This document shows, one piece after another, positions 2,488 through 33,470 of a stretch of DNA of 34,084 nt (the stretch's first letter is position 1; each line of letters starts with the position of its first letter). Both the position numbers and the translations under genes were made by a program. The DNA lies in IMG/VR virus record IMGVR_UViG_3300020207_001276, positions 1 through 34,084 of that record, one strand, 5' to 3'. The notes beneath the pieces are model-generated. The model did not search any database, was not told the origin of the DNA, and saw only the letters and a program-made list of their open reading frames with translations. This DNA is from a virus.

Positions 2488-3266
2488 CTTTGGCTGTTCT
2501 CTTTACCGCTTGCGTACATCTCTAAGTTAGCAATATAAAAGTTCATACCATGATCTGAGAAGTTATCAATGCTGCCTGCTTTGATACCCATCCACATACC
2601 ACGCATACGATCTTTGAAACGCTGCCAACCTGTAGGCTTGCGTACATTGCCCCATGCATTCATATAATGTTCTGTACCATTGTGTCTGTATCCCATAATT
2701 GCTAACGGAACACGGGTGACTATGTCATTGTTGTTTACCCAGCGATGATGATCAATATTCATTGCTTTACAGTATCCAGGCCATCCTACTCTTGGAGAAC
2801 CATATGTATAAACTTCTTCTGGATCTCTAATTGATTCTTCGTAATAACAACGACTTGCCATGATGGTAGTCATTGCCGCACCTAATGAATGTCCTGTAAA
2901 CCATAGTTTGTTATCTTTGTTTACTTTACGTTGGATGTCTTCTAATATCATAGGCCATAGTTCGTCTACTTCTGCTTTAAATCCTTTATGTACACGACTT
3001 ACTGTTTCTGCTACTACAGGAACAGCATTTAAATCTGCTTTGATATCATTAAACTCGCTTGGTTGTGTGCCTCGACATGCAATAACCATGTCGTATTTGT
3101 TTTGGAAACGATATGCTTGTGCGCCGTCTCTGTTATAAAACTCAACTGTTCCAAAACCTAATTTTTTTACTTGCTTTTTTACCTCTGTGATGTTATCATT
3201 ATACGCTATACTACTAAGTTTAGCGAATAATAAAGAACGTTCAGGGAAAGACATTTTTGAAATCAT
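2484..3266 (-). CDS. Class 3 (alpha/beta hydrolase) lipase
   Basis: This is the only clear minus-strand gene, 260 aa. It has the lipase nucleophile elbow GHSLG with Ser127, then YTYGSPRVG, an acid in VNNNDIVTRVP (Asp181) and a histidine in NGTEHYM (His200). That order is the Ser-Asp-His triad of the Lipase_3 family, which hydrolyses acylglycerols or phospholipids. No signal peptide is visible, so it acts in the cytoplasm or needs lysis or holin-type access. A GGAGGG site lies upstream of the ATG and a TATAAATA box on the same strand lies about 36 bases upstream, so it should be expressed late. Attack on the host membrane or lipid recycling at lysis is the likely role. Confidence 0.9.
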   Translation of the reverse strand: MISKMSFPERSLLFAKLSSIAYNDNITEVKKQVKKLGFGTVEFYNRDGAQAYRFQNKYDMVIACRGTQPSEFNDIKADLNAVPVVAETVSRVHKGFKAEVDELWPMILEDIQRKVNKDNKLWFTGHSLGAAMTTIMASRCYYEESIRDPEEVYTYGSPRVGWPGYCKAMNIDHHRWVNNNDIVTRVPLAIMGYRHNGTEHYMNAWGNVRKPTGWQRFKDRMRGMWMGIKAGSIDNFSDHGMNFYIANLEMYASGKENSQS

Positions 3267-11408: not shown

Positions 11409-13088
11409 GTGGCTGTTGTACAGATATCAAAAATTCAAGTCCGTAGAGGACAAAAAAATATAGGCACAGGCTTACCGCAATTAGCAAGCGGGGAATTAGG
11501 TTGGGCCATTGATACAAGAGAACTTTATATTGGTAACGGATCAGTTGCAGAAGGTGCACCTGCTGTTGGTAATACAAAAGTACTTACACAGTTTGACGAC
11601 TTATTTGCGTTAGCAGACACATACACTTATCAAGCAGATGACTCTTATATTGTTACTGGACCTAACAGTTCAAATGCTGTTAAACGTACACTACAAGAGC
11701 GTTTAGACGACCGTGTAAGCGTGAGAGCATTTGGTGCTAAGGGCGACGGCGTCACTAACGATACTGATGCATTAACACGAGCAATTGATCAATTATATAT
11801 TAACGATGCTACAAAAGGTAGTGTTGGTAGTCGAATTACACTCCATTTAGAAGCTGGTACATATATTATAAACGATACTCTTTACTTGCCTCCACACGCA
11901 AACATTGTTGGTGCTGGCAGCGACAAAACTGTTATTAGAACAACTTCTACTAAACCAGTTTTTATTACAGTAAATAGTTCAAGTACCCCAGGCAACCCTG
12001 CAAGTGATTCTGAAAGCACTACTATTACACAAGCCACGAACATTATGGTTAAAGGATTAAGTATTTCTACACCAGAAGGCGCGGCAGATACAAATAATAT
12101 TAGTTCGGACTCTAATCCTAATTCAGCAAAAGGTCTTATTTTACAAAGTTGTAAAGACAGTACATTTGAAGATATTAAATTTATTGGTCCTTGGGAAAGC
12201 GGAAATGTTAATGTTGATGATACTGCTATTGCAATTAATCAATTAAGTGGCGCAGTAGACAGCACTAACAACAGATTTATAAATTGTTCTATTAACGGTT
12301 TTGGAATTGGAATTAGATCCAATTGGGATATTGATAATAACTTATTTGACCGTTGTAGATTTGATACCCTTGGACATGCAATTATTTTTGGTGATGACAT
12401 GCAAATAGGCAATGCGGCATCTGGTCAAAGCATTGGTCCAAGTTATAATACTGTTAGCAGAAGTTACTTTACTAATGTTCATAGAGAAACAATTTGGATT
12501 TATAATGGTATTAACAATGTTAGTAAACAAAATAAATTTATTGAAGTAAGTAACAATGGCGGAACTGATACTGCACCTACATACTCTATTATAAAATATC
12601 AAAAAGATTCTAACAAAAGTTTTGAAGACTATTTCTCACGTACATATGCACTATCAAATGGTAACGGATTAGATAATATTCCATATCTTCCTGAGATTGA
12701 CGGAACATCATTTTATACATTAGAATTTGAAGATACTATATCTATTGGACAAGTTACAAATATTAGAGCATTTAGACTACCTGGTGTAATTAATCAATCA
12801 TACGAAGTAGACTATACTTTAGTAAGTAACAACTACAGAGTAATTAGAAGCGGAAAGATGCACATCGTTGTAGATGCTTATGGTAACAACGTAGAAATTT
12901 CAGACGACTATCACTTTACTGGCGACGAAACATATTTGGATAACATAACCTTTAATGTTGCCATAAGAGATGCAGATTCAGACTTGACAAATGACACAGT
13001 TGACGTTATAGTAACAAGTACAATGCCGGGTGACGATGACACTCAGCTAAAGTATACTGTAACAGCAAAGAAAACTAATGTCATTTAA
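11409..13088 (+). CDS. Tail spike/fibre with pectate-lyase-like beta helix
   Basis: GTG start; 559 aa. The N-terminal about 60 residues (ISKIQVRRGQ, LPQLASGELGWAIDTRELYIG) form the short attachment repeat of marine myovirus fibres. RVSVRAFGAKGDGVTNDTDA begins the pectate lyase superfamily domain. It continues as a right-handed parallel beta helix rich in Asn, Ser, Thr and Gly (residues about 100-410), and the C-terminus is a beta-rich receptor-binding-type domain. It should sit on the tail or baseplate and bind or cut host surface polysaccharide. It carries its own late box and overlaps the next gene by one base. Confidence 0.85.
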   Translation: MAVVQISKIQVRRGQKNIGTGLPQLASGELGWAIDTRELYIGNGSVAEGAPAVGNTKVLTQFDDLFALADTYTYQADDSYIVTGPNSSNAVKRTLQERLDDRVSVRAFGAKGDGVTNDTDALTRAIDQLYINDATKGSVGSRITLHLEAGTYIINDTLYLPPHANIVGAGSDKTVIRTTSTKPVFITVNSSSTPGNPASDSESTTITQATNIMVKGLSISTPEGAADTNNISSDSNPNSAKGLILQSCKDSTFEDIKFIGPWESGNVNVDDTAIAINQLSGAVDSTNNRFINCSINGFGIGIRSNWDIDNNLFDRCRFDTLGHAIIFGDDMQIGNAASGQSIGPSYNTVSRSYFTNVHRETIWIYNGINNVSKQNKFIEVSNNGGTDTAPTYSIIKYQKDSNKSFEDYFSRTYALSNGNGLDNIPYLPEIDGTSFYTLEFEDTISIGQVTNIRAFRLPGVINQSYEVDYTLVSNNYRVIRSGKMHIVVDAYGNNVEISDDYHFTGDETYLDNITFNVAIRDADSDLTNDTVDVIVTSTMPGDDDTQLKYTVTAKKTNVI

Positions 13089-13553: not shown

Positions 13554-15869
13554 ATGTCAAACGGTATTTACATCGTAAAACGAAACGGTTCCAAAGAGCC
13601 AATTAACATTGAAAAGATTCACAAAGTAGTAGAGTTTGCATGTGAAGGTTTAGCAGGTGTTAGTAGCAGTCAAATTGAAATGAACGCAAACTTACAATTT
13701 TACGATGGTATGAGTACTTCGGAAATACAAGAAATAATGATCCGTTCGGCAAATGATCTGATCTCTTTAGACAATCCAAACTATCAATACGCGGCGGCAC
13801 GTTTACTTTCATATGGCGTAAACAAAACAGTGTTCGGTCGTTACGAGCCAATTACACTAAAGCAAATGATTGATCTAAATATTGAGCGTGGTGTTTATGA
13901 TGCAGAGATTTTAGAAAAATATACTGAAGAAGAGCTTGCTCGTTTAGATAGTTACATTCATCATAAGCGTGACGAAAACTTTACCTACGCAGGCTTGCGT
14001 CAGGTAGTAGACAAATACCTTTGTCAGGACAGAAGCTCAGGAGAAATTTTTGAAACTCCACAATTTATGTATATGATGATTGCGGCAACACTATTTGCTA
14101 ACTATCCAAAAGAAACTCGTATGCACTACGTAAGGAGATATTATGACTCGACCTCCCTTTTTAAAATCAATATCCCAACGCCAGTCATGGCCGGTGTCCG
14201 TACACCTGTTAGACAGTTTGCTTCGTGTGTCCTTGTTGACAGTGACGATACCCTTGATAGTATCTTCGCAAGTGATATGTCAATTGGCAGGTACACAGCG
14301 CAAAGAGCAGGCATCGGAATCAACGCAGGACGCATCCGCGGAGTAAATGCTAAGATCAGAGGCGGAGAAGTCGCTCACACTGGCATTATTCCCTTCTTAA
14401 AGAAGTTTGAGGCAACTGTTAGATGTTGTACTCAGAACGGTGTTCGCGGCGGCTCTGCCACCACACACTTTCCTTTTTGGCATCAAGAGATTGAAGACAT
14501 CCTTGTGCTAAAGAACAACAAAGGCACAGAAGACAATCGTGTACGTAAATTAGACTATTCAATTCAGTTAAACAAAACAATGTACGAAAGGTTGTTATCT
14601 GGAGGAGATATTACTCTTTTCTCGCCACATGATGTGCCAGGACTATACGAAGCATACTACGGTGACCCTGCGGCATTCCAAGAGCTATATGAAAAGTACG
14701 AACGTGCTACAAGTATTAAAAAGAAGTCTATTCCAGCAATGGAATTGTTCTCTGCTCTAATTAAGGAACGTGCTGAAACAGGGCGTATCTACATTATGAA
14801 TGTTGATCATGCAAACACACACAGTTCATTCAAAGACACAGTTTACATGAGTAACCTATGTCAAGAGATTACATTACCTACTAAGCCACTACAGCATATT
14901 GATGATCCAGAAGGTGAAATTGCTTTATGTATTCTGAGTGCTATTAATGTTGGTGCTATTAAAGAGTTAGATGACTTAGAAGAACTATGTGAATTAGCAG
15001 TAAGAGCATTAGAAGAAATTATTGACTATCAGCGTTATCCAATCTTGGCCGCCGAGAAGTCAACTAAGGCAAGACGTTCGTTAGGTGTAGGATATATTGG
15101 TTTAGCACACTTCTTAGCAAAACAAAAAGTGCAATACAACGATCCACAAGCGTGGAAACTTGTACATGACTTATCAGAAGCATTCCAATACTATTTGCTA
15201 AAAGCAAGTAACACACTTGCTAAAGAGCGTGGTGCTTGCGAGTACTTTGACCGCACTAAATACAGCGACGGCATTCTGCCAATTGACACTTACAAAAAGG
15301 ATGTGGACACAATCGTTCCACACAAACTAAACTATGATTGGGATAGTCTCCGCAATGACATTAAGGAACACGGGCTCAGGCACTCAACTTTGTCCGCACA
15401 AATGCCATCGGAGAGCAGTTCCGTTGTGTCGAACGCAACAAACGGAATTGAACCACCACGTGGATACTTGTCCGTTAAGAAGTCAAAGAAAGGGCCTCTT
15501 AAGCAGATTGTTCCACAGTATCAAACACTAAAGAACCATTATACACTGCTTTGGGATATGCCAAGCAACGAAGGTTATATCAACGTTGTCGCAGTAATGC
15601 AAAAGTTCTTTGACCAAGCCATTAGTGGCAACTGGTCATACAACCCAACCCACTACGAGAACAACGAAGTGCCAATGAGTGTTATGTTACAAGACTTGTT
15701 GAATACTTATAAGTATGGATGGAAGACTTCTTACTATCAAAATACTTACGATTACAAGACTGATCCAAGTGAGATTGAAGAAGACAAACCGCAAACACAA
15801 TTATTAGATGCTGGAGTTCCTAATAGCATCGCACAAGACGGAGAAGAATGCGAAGCTTGTGCCATTTAA
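13554..15869 (+). CDS. nrdA: Ribonucleoside-diphosphate reductase class Ia, alpha subunit
   Basis: 771 aa, full length. The N-terminal ATP-cone (YIVKRNGSKEPINIEKIHKV) gives overall activity control. The active-site cysteines are in QFASCVLVD and EIALCILSAIN, with the radical cysteine in SNLCQEITLP. The di-tyrosine of the radical path is TSYYQNT. The C-terminal redox pair is CEAC, two residues apart (E. coli has four between). It makes dNDPs from NDPs with NrdB and is re-reduced by the glutaredoxin encoded two genes on. Base use at about 14140-14470 looks more GC-rich than its surroundings. Confidence 0.97.
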   Translation: MSNGIYIVKRNGSKEPINIEKIHKVVEFACEGLAGVSSSQIEMNANLQFYDGMSTSEIQEIMIRSANDLISLDNPNYQYAAARLLSYGVNKTVFGRYEPITLKQMIDLNIERGVYDAEILEKYTEEELARLDSYIHHKRDENFTYAGLRQVVDKYLCQDRSSGEIFETPQFMYMMIAATLFANYPKETRMHYVRRYYDSTSLFKINIPTPVMAGVRTPVRQFASCVLVDSDDTLDSIFASDMSIGRYTAQRAGIGINAGRIRGVNAKIRGGEVAHTGIIPFLKKFEATVRCCTQNGVRGGSATTHFPFWHQEIEDILVLKNNKGTEDNRVRKLDYSIQLNKTMYERLLSGGDITLFSPHDVPGLYEAYYGDPAAFQELYEKYERATSIKKKSIPAMELFSALIKERAETGRIYIMNVDHANTHSSFKDTVYMSNLCQEITLPTKPLQHIDDPEGEIALCILSAINVGAIKELDDLEELCELAVRALEEIIDYQRYPILAAEKSTKARRSLGVGYIGLAHFLAKQKVQYNDPQAWKLVHDLSEAFQYYLLKASNTLAKERGACEYFDRTKYSDGILPIDTYKKDVDTIVPHKLNYDWDSLRNDIKEHGLRHSTLSAQMPSESSSVVSNATNGIEPPRGYLSVKKSKKGPLKQIVPQYQTLKNHYTLLWDMPSNEGYINVVAVMQKFFDQAISGNWSYNPTHYENNEVPMSVMLQDLLNTYKYGWKTSYYQNTYDYKTDPSEIEEDKPQTQLLDAGVPNSIAQDGEECEACAI

Positions 15870-15871
15870 GG

Positions 15872-15900
15872 TTGACAAGTAACTGCAATGATAGTATTAT
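15872..15900 (+). promoter_or_regulatory. Sigma70-type promoter before nrdB
   Basis: TTGACA (15872-15877), 17 bases, TATTAT (15895-15900), in the short nrdA-nrdB gap. It gives nrdB and grx their own transcript; AAGGAAGG is the ribosome site. Confidence 0.8.
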
Positions 15901-15924
15901 AGAAGAAGTATAAGGAAGGTTTTA

Positions 15925-17028
15925 ATGGCTAAAACAGTATTTAATAAGGACAAAGTAGACTTCACAAAACAGAATATGTTTTTTGGAGCAGACCAAAACA
16001 CTCAACGATATGATGTTTTTAAGTTTCCAGTGTTTGATAAACTTAATCAAACAATGCTGGGGTATTTTTGGCGACCGGAAGAAGTTTCTCTGCAAAAGGA
16101 CAGAGCAGACTATGCACAGTTTCGTCCAGAACAGAAACACATCTTTACTGCAAACTTAAAGTACCAAACACTGTTAGACAGTGTACAGGGTCGTGGACCT
16201 TGTTTGGCTTTCTTGCCACACGTAAGTTTGCCAGAGCTTGAAGGGTGTATTGTTACTTGGGACTTCTTTGAAACTATTCACTCACGTTCGTATACACACA
16301 TTATGAAAAATGTGTATCCAGATCCTACAGAAGTTTTTGATACTATTTTAGATGACAAAAAGATTCTTGCTCGTGCGCAAAGTGTTACAAAATACTATGA
16401 CGAATTTAACGATGCCGCTGATGCGTTTATGCATCGTAAAGAAGGCAATATGCGTGACGTTAAAAAGAAACTGTACCTTGCTATGCAAACTGTAAACATT
16501 CTTGAAGGACTGCGTTTCTATGTAAGTTTTGCGTGTACTTTTGGTTTTGGAGAACTAAAACTAATGGAAGGCTCTGCAAAGATTATTTCACTAATTGCAC
16601 GTGACGAAGCACAGCACCTTGCACTAAGCACACATGTTCTTAAACTTTGGGCTCAAGGCAAAGATGATCCAGAAATGGCTAAAATTGCTAAAGAGTGCGA
16701 AGCTGAAGTATATGACTTATGGCGTGAGTGTGTTGCAGAAGAAAAAGACTGGGCAGACTATCTATTTAAAGATGGTTCAATGATTGGTCTTAATGCTACA
16801 CTTCTACATCAATATGTAGAGTACATTGCAAACAGACGTTTAAAAGCATTGGGATTAAATGCTATCTTTGATGCTCCAGTAAACACTAATCCACTTCCGT
16901 GGACACAACATTGGTTGAGCTCATCAGGCTTACAAGTTGCTCCACAAGAAACAGAAGTGGAGTCGTACATCATCGGCGGCATTAAACAAGACGTTGATAA
17001 AGATTCACTTAAAGGATTTAGTTTATGA
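15925..17028 (+). CDS. nrdB: Ribonucleoside-diphosphate reductase class Ia, beta subunit
   Basis: 367 aa. The di-iron and radical centre is visible: an Asp in VTWDFFETIH with Glu and His in the same helix, the radical Tyr in HSRSYTHIM, and a second Glu/His pair in ARDEAQHLAL. The end (SLKGFSL) should be the tail that docks into NrdA. It generates the tyrosyl radical used by NrdA. It overlaps grx by four bases (ATGA). No truncation or missing ligand is seen. Confidence 0.97.
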   Translation: MAKTVFNKDKVDFTKQNMFFGADQNTQRYDVFKFPVFDKLNQTMLGYFWRPEEVSLQKDRADYAQFRPEQKHIFTANLKYQTLLDSVQGRGPCLAFLPHVSLPELEGCIVTWDFFETIHSRSYTHIMKNVYPDPTEVFDTILDDKKILARAQSVTKYYDEFNDAADAFMHRKEGNMRDVKKKLYLAMQTVNILEGLRFYVSFACTFGFGELKLMEGSAKIISLIARDEAQHLALSTHVLKLWAQGKDDPEMAKIAKECEAEVYDLWRECVAEEKDWADYLFKDGSMIGLNATLLHQYVEYIANRRLKALGLNAIFDAPVNTNPLPWTQHWLSSSGLQVAPQETEVESYIIGGIKQDVDKDSLKGFSL

Positions 17029-24624: not shown

Positions 24625-25803
24625 ATGAGATTAGAACAAGATATTAAATTAGACTATAAGGATGTTCTTATTCGTCCTAAACGTTCAACACTTGGTAGTC
24701 GTAAAGAAGTAGACCTTAAACGTGGATACAACTGGCGAAACTGGCAACCTGAAGATATGAGCATGGAGCAAATACGTCCTGAGCAAAAACACTGGCGTGG
24801 TGTTCCTATTATGGCAAGTAATATGGACGGTGTTGGTACATTTGAAATGGCTGACAAACTTGCTGAAGCCGAAGTGTTTACTTGTCTTGTTAAAACATAT
24901 AGCGTAAACGAGCTTGTAAATTATTTTGACAGCGAATATCCTGAGCGTACAGAATATGTTGCAATGAGTATTGGAATTACAGAACGTGATCACGACAAGT
25001 TTCGTGCAGTATATGAACAAACAGGCGAAAAATTGCGTTATATTTGTATTGACGTAGCAAATGGTTATAGTGAACGTTTTGTAAAATTTGTAAAACAATT
25101 TAGAGAACTATATCCGCATATAGTCATCATAGCGGGTAATGTTGTAACCGGAGAGATGACAGAGGAGTTAATTCTAAATGGAGCAGACATTGTTAAAGTG
25201 GGCATCGGCCCTGGGAGCGTTTGCACAACTCGTATTCAAACTGGTGTTGGTTATCCTCAGCTTAGTGCTGTTATGGAGTGTGCTGACAGTGCTCATGGCC
25301 TTGGTGGACATATCATTGCTGATGGAGGATGTACTTCACCAGGTGATGTGGCTAAGGCATTTGCTGGAGGAGCCGACTTCGTCATGCTTGGAGGAATGCT
25401 TGCCGGGCACGATGAAGGGGGAGGTGATGTAATCACCAAATACTACAAAACAGGAGAGTGGGTTAAAGACGAACAAACTCTCGATGGTCGAACTGTAGAA
25501 ATTACCTGGAAAGACGGTATTGAAAGAAAAAAGTTTGTAACATTCTACGGAATGAGTTCGAAGGCCGCGAACGACAAACACTTTGGAGGCCTTAAGGAGT
25601 ATAGAAGCAGTGAAGGACGAGAAGTTCTTGTGCCTTACAGAGGAGCAGTGGGTAGTACTGTTCAAGATATTTTGGGTGGGTTGCGTTCTGCTTGTACTTA
25701 CGCAGGCGCAGTAAGATTAAAATATCTGTCAAAATGTACAACATTTGTTCGTTGTACGCAGACTCATAATTCTGTTTACGAAAACTCAACTATCGGTAAA
25801 TAA
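24625..25803 (+). CDS. guaC: GMP reductase
   Basis: 392 aa (E. coli GuaC is 347). The N-terminus [21 protein letters not shown] is diagnostic for GuaC rather than GuaB. The catalytic loop is [11 protein letters not shown] with Cys200, and [36 protein letters not shown] and [12 protein letters not shown] all match GuaC; there is no CBS insert. Extra residues at about 35-57 and 275-305 explain the length. It reduces GMP to IMP with NADPH, moving guanine nucleotides toward adenine, which suits an AT-rich genome. Base use at about 25110-25450 is more GC-rich than around it. Confidence 0.92.
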
Positions 25804-27537: not shown

Positions 27538-28002
27538 ATGACAAGACTAACAACACTCGACCTACCTAACTTTCACAGAGCTACAATTGGCTTTGATAGA
27601 ATGTTCGACGAATTAGAAAGAACTTTTGCTAATTCACAATCAAACGGTTATCCACCATACAACATTGCACAGATCAACGAAGATGAGTATATGATCTCTC
27701 TTGCCGTTGCTGGCTTTGGCATGGATAATCTTTCAATTGAAAAAGATAAGAACGTTCTTAAGATTGAAGGTACAGCTCCTAAAGGAGGAGACGAAGTAAA
27801 TTATCTACACAAAGGAATTGGCGGACGCAACTTCCGTAGAGAGTTTACACTTGCTGATCACGTTGATGTTGTTAATGCAAGCCTTGAATTAGGTATGCTT
27901 AACATTCATCTAAAGCGTGAAGTTCCAGAAGAGCTACAGCCTAAGAAGATTGAGATCAATGCTGGTCTTACTCTTGACGGCGAAGTTGCAGAGGACAAGT
28001 AA
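27538..28002 (+). CDS. hsp20: Small heat-shock protein (Hsp20/IbpA type)
   Basis: 154 aa. N-terminal LPNFHRATIGFDRMFDELERTF resembles IbpA. The alpha-crystallin domain (about residues 35-130) contains ISLAVAGFGMDNLSIEK, GRNFRREFTLADHVDV and the end motif GMLNIHLKREVPEE. A C-terminal IEI anchor (KKIEIN) binds neighbouring subunits. It holds unfolding proteins in the cytoplasm. Common in marine T4-like phages. The leader suggests temperature or structural control, and a strong hairpin follows it. Confidence 0.95.
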   Translation: MTRLTTLDLPNFHRATIGFDRMFDELERTFANSQSNGYPPYNIAQINEDEYMISLAVAGFGMDNLSIEKDKNVLKIEGTAPKGGDEVNYLHKGIGGRNFRREFTLADHVDVVNASLELGMLNIHLKREVPEELQPKKIEINAGLTLDGEVAEDK

Positions 28003-28060: not shown

Positions 28061-28372
28061 ATGAGTACAGATGTAATTGAAGAAGTAGTAATAGACGAAA
28101 AAATTGGGGAAGTAATCGATGTCCCTAAGAGATACAAAGTAGTTCTTATTAATGATGATCAAACTCCTATGGATTGGGTTATTGATGTTTTAGTATCTAT
28201 TTTTAAACATTCTGAAACAACTGCAAAAGAGCTTACACTAACCATTCATACCGAAGGCTCTGGCATTGCAGGCATATATACTTTTGAAATGGCGGAACAA
28301 AAAACTATTGAAGCAACAACAGCAAGTAGAGAAAGAGGTTTTCCGTTACAAATTAAAGTAGATGAAGAATGA
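28061..28372 (+). CDS. clpS: ClpS adaptor for ClpAP protease
   Basis: 103 aa. After an acidic flexible N-terminus, YKVVLINDDQTPMDWVIDVLVSIFKHS, then HTEGSGIAGIYTFEMAEQK and ERGFPLQIKV match ClpS from end to end. The N-degron pocket residues (NDD with TPM, His in TIHTEG) are present. It delivers proteins with destabilising N-termini to ClpAP; a phage copy could retarget host proteolysis. It overlaps ho1 by 4 bases. AAGGAG is the ribosome site. Confidence 0.93.
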   Translation: MSTDVIEEVVIDEKIGEVIDVPKRYKVVLINDDQTPMDWVIDVLVSIFKHSETTAKELTLTIHTEGSGIAGIYTFEMAEQKTIEATTASRERGFPLQIKVDEE

Positions 28373-28932
28373 GCAATTTAAAAGAATTAACTAAAGAACA
28401 GCATACCAATGCTGAAAGACAAGACTTTGTTAAAGTATTAATGAGTGGAAAAATTAATCCACAGTTTTATGCCACGTACCTATGGAACCAGCATAAAAAA
28501 TATGACTTACTTGAAGCAATGGCCGCAGTAAATGGAATTTGGTTAGATATTCCTTTTCCTATTCAACGTAAAATGGCAATTGAACAAGACTTTTTAGAAC
28601 TATGGGAAGATAAACAAAATCCTCCACCTATAGTTCAAAGCACACATGATTATATCGCACATCTAAAAGATATAATGCATGATAAAACTGCACTAATGGC
28701 ACATATCTATACATTGCATATGGGAGACCTAAGCGGTGGACAAATGATTTCTAAAAAGATTCCAGGTGAAGGTCGTATGTATCAATTTGAAGGCGACATC
28801 AAAGAAATCAAAGAAGCAATTAGAAGCAATACTTCAGATGATATGGCAGATGAAGCAAAATGGGTATTTGAATCAGCAACTGCTCTTTTTAAAGAGCTTA
28901 TGGAGTTAGACATTGAGCCTTATTTGGAATAA
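28369..28932 (+). CDS. ho1: Heme oxygenase
   Basis: 187 aa. LKELTKEQHTNAERQDF carries the heme-ligand His12, and HMGDLSGGQMISKK is the distal-helix signature. It cleaves heme to biliverdin, iron and CO using reduced ferredoxin or similar. The next gene, overlapping by 20 bases, is a bilin reductase that would use the biliverdin. Coupled ATGA to clpS. The cytoplasmic product would feed a bilin pathway and release iron. Confidence 0.95.
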   Translation: MSNLKELTKEQHTNAERQDFVKVLMSGKINPQFYATYLWNQHKKYDLLEAMAAVNGIWLDIPFPIQRKMAIEQDFLELWEDKQNPPPIVQSTHDYIAHLKDIMHDKTALMAHIYTLHMGDLSGGQMISKKIPGEGRMYQFEGDIKEIKEAIRSNTSDDMADEAKWVFESATALFKELMELDIEPYLE

Positions 28933-29605
28933 ACTAATTGAGTGTAAAGACGAAATCATCCAAGTATTCGACGAAAAAGCAACAGAAATTAAAGAAGACG
29001 GTTTGGATTATTTTAATCGCCCAGACGGTGGTTGGATCAATCGTGTTTGGGCTAATGATTCTATTAGACGGGCACATATAGATGTAGTTGACGCTCGTGA
29101 TACTAAAGGACTTTGGATGATGCACGTATGCATTTTCCCTACACTTGATAATCCAGCACCTATATACGGCTTTGATGTAATTGCTGGCAAAAACAAAATG
29201 ACAGGAGCATTCCACGACTTTAGTGCAAGTGCAGATCCAGACCATCCAATGATTGACGGGTACAGAGAAAGTGTTGCACACTTTGTTCCTGAGAAACAAC
29301 GTGAACTTCCTGAGTGGGCTCGCAATATCTTTACAGATAAAATGCTTGCCGCTGGTAACGTAAAGTCTGAAGAGGAAGCAACAGAAATTATTAGAATTGC
29401 TCTTAGTAATTTACGAGCATATTTTGATGAAGTAGGTTTATCAAAAGGTGAAGGCGACCAAACTCTCGTGGCAGCGGCACAAGATTACTATTGTCACAAT
29501 CAGCAACAAAATCCTCACACACCCAATGTAATGAAAAGTTTGGGACTACCAGAAGAAGATGTAGACAAATTCTGCACGGATATGTTGTTTCCTAAACTCG
29601 CATAA
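28913..29605 (+). CDS. pcyX: Ferredoxin-dependent bilin reductase (PcyX/PcyA-type)
   Basis: 230 aa; TTG start with GGAG seven bases upstream, inside ho1. The substrate-binding pattern matches PcyA: MMHVCIFP with His71 and GFDVIAG with Asp88, the same 17-residue spacing as His88 and Asp105 of PcyA. The PcyA Glu76 position appears as Asp57 (HID). End motifs LPEWARNIF, MLAAGNV and NPHTPNVM fit the family. It reduces biliverdin to a bilin using ferredoxin. PcyX, described from uncultured oceanic phages beside a heme oxygenase gene, makes phycoerythrobilin; the symbol is my inference. Confidence 0.88.
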   Translation: MSLIWNKLIECKDEIIQVFDEKATEIKEDGLDYFNRPDGGWINRVWANDSIRRAHIDVVDARDTKGLWMMHVCIFPTLDNPAPIYGFDVIAGKNKMTGAFHDFSASADPDHPMIDGYRESVAHFVPEKQRELPEWARNIFTDKMLAAGNVKSEEEATEIIRIALSNLRAYFDEVGLSKGEGDQTLVAAAQDYYCHNQQQNPHTPNVMKSLGLPEEDVDKFCTDMLFPKLA

Positions 29606-32142: not shown

Positions 32143-32595
32143 ATGAGGACAATAATAGCAACTTTAGTATTATTTTATGCAACAAGTGCAGTTGCGAGCG
32201 AGATGGTCTGGGGATTTAAAAATCCACGTTTTAGCGGACAAGGATATAGTTCGCATGTACTATCTACAGAGCAATTACAACACAATCGCAAAGAAGATAT
32301 TAAAGCAAAAGCAGAAGCTGAACAAAGACGTATCGAGCGTGAACTTGAAAACACAACCCTAAACAAATTCTTAAAGAACGTAGAATCACGTATCTACGCA
32401 CAAATTTCAAAGCAGATGGTAGACGCTATGTTTGCTGATTGTTCAGACTCTTGTGCTAATACAGGCACAGCAGAAATTGAAGGCTCAACTATTGTTTGGG
32501 TCAAAGCAGACGGTATGATCACTTTAACAGTTACACAAGATGATGGAACAGTTACTGAGATTAGCATACCGGCAGATGGAGATTTTAGTTTTTAA
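32143..32595 (+). CDS. csgF: Curli assembly protein CsgF
   Basis: 150 aa from ATG 32143; the upstream in-frame GTG at 32128 lies on the ribosome site, so it is rejected. Signal peptide MRTIIATLVLFYATSAVA. The mature N-terminus SEMVWGFKNPRFSGQGYSSHVL corresponds to the CsgF segment (FxNPxFGG) that plugs the CsgG pore. The middle is helical, and the end WVKADGMITLTVTQDDGTVTE matches the beta-rich CsgF tail. Secreted to the outer membrane to help nucleate curli. It overlaps csgG by one base. Confidence 0.9.
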   Translation: MRTIIATLVLFYATSAVASEMVWGFKNPRFSGQGYSSHVLSTEQLQHNRKEDIKAKAEAEQRRIERELENTTLNKFLKNVESRIYAQISKQMVDAMFADCSDSCANTGTAEIEGSTIVWVKADGMITLTVTQDDGTVTEISIPADGDFSF

Positions 32596-33470
32596 TGTTG
32601 CGTATGGGATCAGTACTACTAATTATTGCTTTTCTGACTGGATGTACAGCTATGAATAGTAGCTTACAAACACTCAAAGAGGCAGAGATCTCGCCTACGG
32701 TACAAGCATCGCCTATACAACAAAGATTAGAAGATGTTCCAGAATTAGATGGAGAAACAATTACAATCGCTGTTTATAGTTTTACAGATAAAACAGGACA
32801 GCGTAAACCCAGTGACATGGTTGCTAATCTAAGCAGTGCAGTCACACAAGGCTCAGAAGCCTGGGTTATCAAAGCCTTACAAGAGGTGGGCAACGGCAAA
32901 TGGTTTGAAGTTGTTGAACGTGTAGGTATGGACAATCTTATCAAAGAGCGTCAACTTATAAGACAGACACGTGAAAACTACGAAGGAGATAATGCTCCTA
33001 AACTAAAACCATTGTTGTTTGCAGGGCTCATTCTCGAAGGCGGCATTGTTGGATATGATAGCAATGTAGCAGTCGGAGGAGCAGGAGCCAGTTGGCTTGG
33101 CATTGGTGCAAGCACAGAATATAGAATCGACAACGTAACAGTGGTAATGCGTATCGTATCAGTTAGCACAGGGAAAGTGTTACTGAGTATAGCAACGGAG
33201 AAAACCATTGCAAGCCACAGGTCCGGAGCGGACGTTTTTAAGTTCCTTGATATGGGAACTCAACTGTTAGAAACTGAAACTGGTTTCTCAGTTAATGAGC
33301 CTGTCAACTATGCTGTGAGGGCGGCCGTTGAACAGGGAATCGTAGAATTAGTCTACGAAGGTCAACGAAAGGGACTTTGGAAGTTCCAGGAGGGTAAACA
33401 AAATGAAATTAAGAACGTTGATATTATTGTTGACGGCAACACTATTTCTAACTCCAGCTCTGGCGAATGA
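32595..33470 (+). CDS. csgG: Curli secretion channel CsgG
   Basis: 291 aa. Lipobox FLTGC (Cys17). Domain motifs: ITIAVYSFTDKTGQRKPSD, KWFEVVERVGMDNLIKERQLIR, LEGGIVGYDSNVAVGGAGASWLGIGAS and TEYRIDNVTVVMRIVSVSTGKVL all follow E. coli CsgG. CsgG is a nine-subunit outer-membrane channel that exports curlin. Full length. csgF comes before it and a curlin-like gene starts inside its end. Pelagimyophages are known to carry csgG and csgF; the role in infection is open. Confidence 0.94.
   Translation: MLRMGSVLLIIAFLTGCTAMNSSLQTLKEAEISPTVQASPIQQRLEDVPELDGETITIAVYSFTDKTGQRKPSDMVANLSSAVTQGSEAWVIKALQEVGNGKWFEVVERVGMDNLIKERQLIRQTRENYEGDNAPKLKPLLFAGLILEGGIVGYDSNVAVGGAGASWLGIGASTEYRIDNVTVVMRIVSVSTGKVLLSIATEKTIASHRSGADVFKFLDMGTQLLETETGFSVNEPVNYAVRAAVEQGIVELVYEGQRKGLWKFQEGKQNEIKNVDIIVDGNTISNSSSGE

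Follow-up and report, generated by a model that had tools for sequence, protein, structure and literature searches.

The window, by which we mean the whole 34,084-nt stretch of DNA analysed, is IMG/VR record IMGVR_UViG_3300020207_001276, a ~34-kb fragment. Towards its right-hand end it carries a gene for a heme oxygenase (HO) followed by one for a ferredoxin-dependent bilin reductase (FDBR) (Table 1). Both open reading frames are confirmed at the positions given in the original prediction and, as claimed there, they overlap, by 20 nt. The last 4 nt of clpS likewise overlap the start of the HO gene, making ClpS, HO and reductase an overlapping trio, and the GroEL and Hsp20 genes lie a short way upstream. 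The reductase frame begins with a TTG preceded by GGAG, both inside the HO gene; a TTG start is found in 42 of 83 homologous reductase frames, as called mechanically. ClpS, HO and the reductase are probably translated together.

Table 1 Features of the window referred to in the text (positions in nt; E values from protein family profiles)
Feature	Position	Strand	Profile match
Tail-spike-like protein	11409..13088		
Class Ia ribonucleotide reductase (RNR)	13554..17028		
IMP dehydrogenase/GMP reductase family protein	24625..25803	+	PF00478, E 7e-66; homologues in 69 loci
GroEL-type chaperonin, 537 aa	25819..27432	+	PF00118, E 1e-73
Small heat-shock protein Hsp20	27538..28002	+	PF00011, E 8e-15
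ClpS adaptor	28061..28372	+	PF02617, E 7e-27
Heme oxygenase, HO-1 type, 187 aa	28369..28932	+	PF01126, E 3e-21
Ferredoxin-dependent bilin reductase, predicted PcyX type, 230 aa, TTG start	28913..29605	+	PF05996, E 2e-15
CsgG-type curli secretion protein	32595..33470		

Heme oxygenase and bilin reductase

The HO has the proximal histidine, the distal helix and the all-helical fold of the HO-1 type. Its His12 aligns with His25 of HO-1, the distal-helix motif GDLSGGQ is there, and an AlphaFold2 model (pLDDT 92.5) has rat HO-1 as its best match in the PDB (TMq 0.84).

The reductase scores above the curated cut-off of the FDBR profile, PF05996. The nearest solved structure is 5OWG, the PcyX enzyme PcyX_EBK42635 (phmmer E 4e-82, 53% identity), whereas Synechocystis PcyA matches at E 8e-13 only. 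The model of the reductase (pLDDT 92.5) also finds 5OWG as its best match in Foldseek (TMt 0.95), with PebS as a weak structural match only. At the position of the catalytic Glu76 of PcyA there is instead an aspartate, Asp57, corresponding to Asp55 of PcyX, and His71 and Asp88 correspond to His88 and Asp105 of PcyA with the 17-residue spacing unchanged, just as the original prediction had described. The three residues are invariant across the reductase alignments. A maximum-likelihood tree places the reductase in one clade with 5OWG and the enzyme of the SAR11 phage Mosig (support 97/94). Cyanophage and Synechocystis PcyA form a separate clade (98/93), and PebS falls far outside the PcyX clade, so that the reductase does not belong to the PebA/PebS lineage; in this tree PebS and two bacterial FDBRs are on very long branches and the Synechocystis sequence is partial. 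AX-clade bacterial PcyA is the nearest known relative of PcyX. The tree was built without these alphaproteobacterial (Bradyrhizobium-type) enzymes, and it is Asp57 alone that sets the reductase apart from them.

The PcyX of 5OWG is a characterised, PEB-forming enzyme (PMC11480375, PMC13193486), PEB being phycoerythrobilin. Product specificity of FDBRs cannot be safely predicted from sequence (PMC13193486), and the enzyme of the freshwater phage CB_2, at first called PcyA/X, proved to make PCB (PMC11480375), which makes it conceivable that the reductase is really a PCB-forming PcyA. We regard this as very improbable. PcyX activity has been attributed to Asp55, which CB_2 lacks (PMC11480375) and which is present here as Asp57; the closest solved relative is a PcyX, at 53% identity, and the Synechocystis and cyanophage PcyA enzymes are in another clade. 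Tree, residue signature and closest structure thus bear out the predicted assignment to the PEB-forming type, and on this comparison of sequences we assign the reductase to PcyX.

The coupled two-step path from heme through biliverdin to a bilin that had been proposed is supported. HO would open heme to biliverdin IXalpha, Fe2+ and CO, using O2 and electrons; PcyX would then reduce biliverdin to 15,16-dihydrobiliverdin and on to PEB with four electrons from reduced ferredoxin. This heme-to-PEB chemistry is very likely, because of the close homology to the characterised enzyme. No ferredoxin of the Fer2 (2Fe-2S) family was found in 37 related viral records, and the electrons for PcyX therefore presumably come from a host ferredoxin. 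Catalytic activity, product identity and ferredoxin donor, as well as the host and purpose discussed below, are what we infer from the genes.

The phage and its host

Most genes between 1.1 and 29.6 kb of the window are collinear with 18.0–51.8 kb of a 335-kb contig, PBPT01000016, and the same region is largely collinear with 178–207 kb of a 275-kb IMG/VR contig. The capsid protein encoded on the 335-kb contig is T4-type, with 69% identity to that of Sinorhizobium phage Phosso, 67% to Vibrio phage 2.275.O and 65% to PA5oct-type (Pseudomonas) phages. Given this collinearity and the jumbo-phage type of the capsid, the window most likely derives from a jumbo phage of the T4 type. Searches of the IMG/VR records for the major capsid protein (MCP) gave no match, the records being fragments and one of the searches having been run without a positive control. 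Origin from a pelagimyophage of the Mosig type was considered and rejected, given the collinear 335- and 275-kb contigs and an MCP on the former that is only 37% identical to that of Mosig. The tail-spike-like protein of the window has a pectate-lyase-like domain and an Mtd N-terminal domain, and is only about 42–47% identical, over the best stretch, to its counterparts in the collinear contigs.

The 335-kb contig (PBPT01000016.1, 335231 bases) had been binned into a Neomarinimicrobiota metagenome-assembled genome (MAG). A bacterial origin of this and three further MAG contigs with PcyX (L083, L084 and L086) was not accepted: the 335-kb contig is phage by its MCP and collinearity, and the others are presumed to be misbinned phage. 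The FDBR cut-off was passed by two of 385 genomes from the class to which the Rickettsiales MAG belongs. In one of them the match is the phage contig; the second, bacterial genome G334, has two divergent FDBRs (L126 and L129) unlike PcyX. A plasmid search found no match.

The prediction had spoken of a phage without photosystem genes and this holds for what was searched: neither the 58 related viral records, among them the 275-kb one, nor the MAG with the 335-kb contig gave a PF00124 (PsbA/D) match, the window itself being a 34-kb fragment. A search of 1.84 Mb of DNA at E 1e-3 found no CpeT, CP12 or PebS homologue. The endolysin of the 335-kb contig is 78% identical to that of the OM43 phage Melnitz and 76% to that of Mosig, and the desaturase of the 275-kb contig matches Mosig only (75%). 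The NrdA of the window is 72% identical to that of Synechococcus phages and 70% to that of Mosig, and we treat it as neutral on the host. GroEL and GMP reductase, tried as host markers, gave no close match. The CsgG-type protein encoded in the window is followed soon after, in many relatives, by a FecR-domain protein; CsgG genes have been reported for pelagimyophages (PMC7029224).

These comparisons indicate that the host is likely non-cyanobacterial and probably a marine heterotrophic proteobacterium. The expectation that the hosts make no phycobilisomes is thus probably right, in view of the genes shared with SAR11 and OM43 phages at 75–78%, the lack of PsbA/D and CpeT matches in the DNA searched and a capsid like those of phages of heterotrophs. 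That the pair instead belongs to a cyanophage and provides PEB for the phycobilisomes of its host, the role proposed for PebS, appears highly improbable. The NrdA, at 72% identity to Synechococcus phages, would fit such an origin, but that of Mosig is nearly as close; no PsbA/D was found in the 58 viral records and neither CpeT nor CP12 in the 1.84 Mb; endolysin (76–78%) and desaturase (75%) go with SAR11 and OM43 phages, the capsid is closest to those of jumbo phages of heterotrophs, and PcyX is not found in cyanophages (PMC13193486).

Conservation of the cassette and its possible role

Scanning IMG/VR gave 217 candidate stretches encoding a relative of the reductase, of which the best 80 were kept. 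Pairwise dN/dS for the pairs closest to the window is 0.03–0.06 for PcyX and 0.08–0.13 for HO, rough values as dS is high. Both genes are under purifying selection, and the number of relatives together with the low dN/dS of the reductase implies that its reading frame is not there by chance. Compared with the 275-kb contig, the window has a PcyX that is 83% identical and an HO that is only 40% identical. PcyX is therefore kept more tightly than its partner. HO was not detected on five PcyX-bearing fragments of 14–33 kb (L064, L066, L067, L068 and L069), whose genomes may still have one farther away. The PcyX gene of these fragments adjoins T4-type recombination and DNA polymerase genes. One further cassette (L078) has two different HO genes (1129–1707 and 2629–3255).

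Gene neighbourhoods were counted over eight genes in 77 loci of close relatives with at least 3 kb upstream, loci which are not independent of one another. HO lies within eight genes upstream of PcyX in 73 of the 77, ClpS and Hsp20 are each upstream in 70, and GroEL, GroES or DnaK is found within the same distance in 29. The reductase thus has, as expected of PcyX, its partner HO gene adjacent and in a phage. The recurrent order is IMPDH/GMP reductase, an optional chaperonin, Hsp20, ClpS, HO and PcyX, the first gene being the conserved left neighbour of this gene island. A tryptophan-halogenase-like (PF04820) or carbon–nitrogen-hydrolase (PF00795) gene stands between HO and PcyX in some loci (L072–L075, L079; L031, L032, L034, L035, L038).

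The fixed position of the cassette behind ClpS is suggestive only, and the gene order may reflect shared expression timing. In plants, ClpS-assisted Clp proteolysis controls an enzyme of heme synthesis (PMC6597238). There is a slim chance that heme-to-PEB breakdown is functionally tied to ClpS-dependent proteolysis as one takeover module, through which the phage would control the heme pool together with the N-degron/Clp pathway, PEB acting as effector in a cell that is not photosynthetic; if so, the proteolytic arm might, for example, turn over a heme-synthesis enzyme of the host.

As to what the cassette is for, we propose that PEB itself would be the selected product. In the infected cell it would most likely serve as a ligand or as a small redox-active molecule, and the released iron would be a secondary benefit. 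We give PEB rather than iron as the selected product about even odds. That PcyX is more tightly conserved than HO suggests that the bilin, and not iron alone, is what is selected, and argues against the bilin as a mere by-product of iron release. The latter had been among the roles first suggested and is weakened by this difference and by the PcyX genes for which no HO could be detected, albeit on fragments. The HO reaction always frees iron, and the class Ia RNR of the window and 2OG-Fe(II) oxygenases require it. An iron-supply role has also been discussed (PMC11480375). It is possible, if unlikely, that the cassette serves to release iron or detoxify heme and that the reductase merely clears biliverdin. 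Against this are the same two observations on PcyX, and clearance of biliverdin would need no four-electron regiospecific enzyme.

The bilin had also been suggested as ligand of a light sensor. No PHY, GAF or phycobilisome domain was found in the 37 related viral records, and neither PHY nor phycobilisome domains in two MAG bins, so that this suggestion gains no phage-borne receptor from the viral records. PEB could still serve as chromophore of a host photoreceptor or of a bilin-binding globin, since phage-made PCB can assemble a phytochrome in Escherichia coli (PMC11480375) and bilin-binding globins are present in heterotrophs (PMC10151467); with no receptor domain in those records and bins, we consider this rather improbable.

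Relation to known phage cassettes

The hemO-pcyX cassette of marine phages, with PcyX_EBK42635 and PDB 5OWG, was reportedly described by Ledermann et al. in 2016 and 2018. The window shares with it the adjacent HO and PcyX genes, the Asp55 signature, 53% identity and the fold; it differs in being on another sub-branch, behind Hsp20 and ClpS and in a jumbo T4-type phage. PebS of cyanophage P-SSM2, also a phage FDBR and likewise predicted to yield PEB, belongs to another FDBR lineage. The hemO-pcyA/X-alaS genes of freshwater phage CB_2 (PMC11480375) resemble the window as a pair of HO and FDBR in a phage whose host is presumably heterotrophic, yet CB_2 makes PCB, lacks Asp55 and has alaS nearby, and no alaS was noticed beside the cassette of the window.

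The cassette has already been tied to pelagiphages (PMC11480375). In Pelagibacter phage Mosig EXVC030M, Mosig_00054 and Mosig_00053 encode an overlapping HO (46% identity) and FDBR (52%) on one strand, as in the window. Mosig is a 141-kb pelagimyophage and its cassette, unlike that of the window, is flanked by 2OG-Fe(II) oxygenase genes and neck genes, with neither ClpS nor GroEL beside it and with Hsp20 elsewhere. Mosig also encodes a ferrochelatase of its own and a protein annotated as a 2Fe-2S ferredoxin.

We therefore see in the window, on present comparisons, a cassette of the known phage hemO-pcyX kind, the new elements being the sub-branch, the jumbo-phage setting and the Hsp20–ClpS neighbourhood. 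This combination was not reported in the literature searched, to which the two original PcyX papers did not belong. The making of phycobilins by phages of non-cyanobacteria has been called enigmatic (PMC11480375), and to this question the lineage adds 217 candidate IMG/VR stretches, a jumbo-phage setting and the conserved order Hsp20–ClpS–HO–PcyX.
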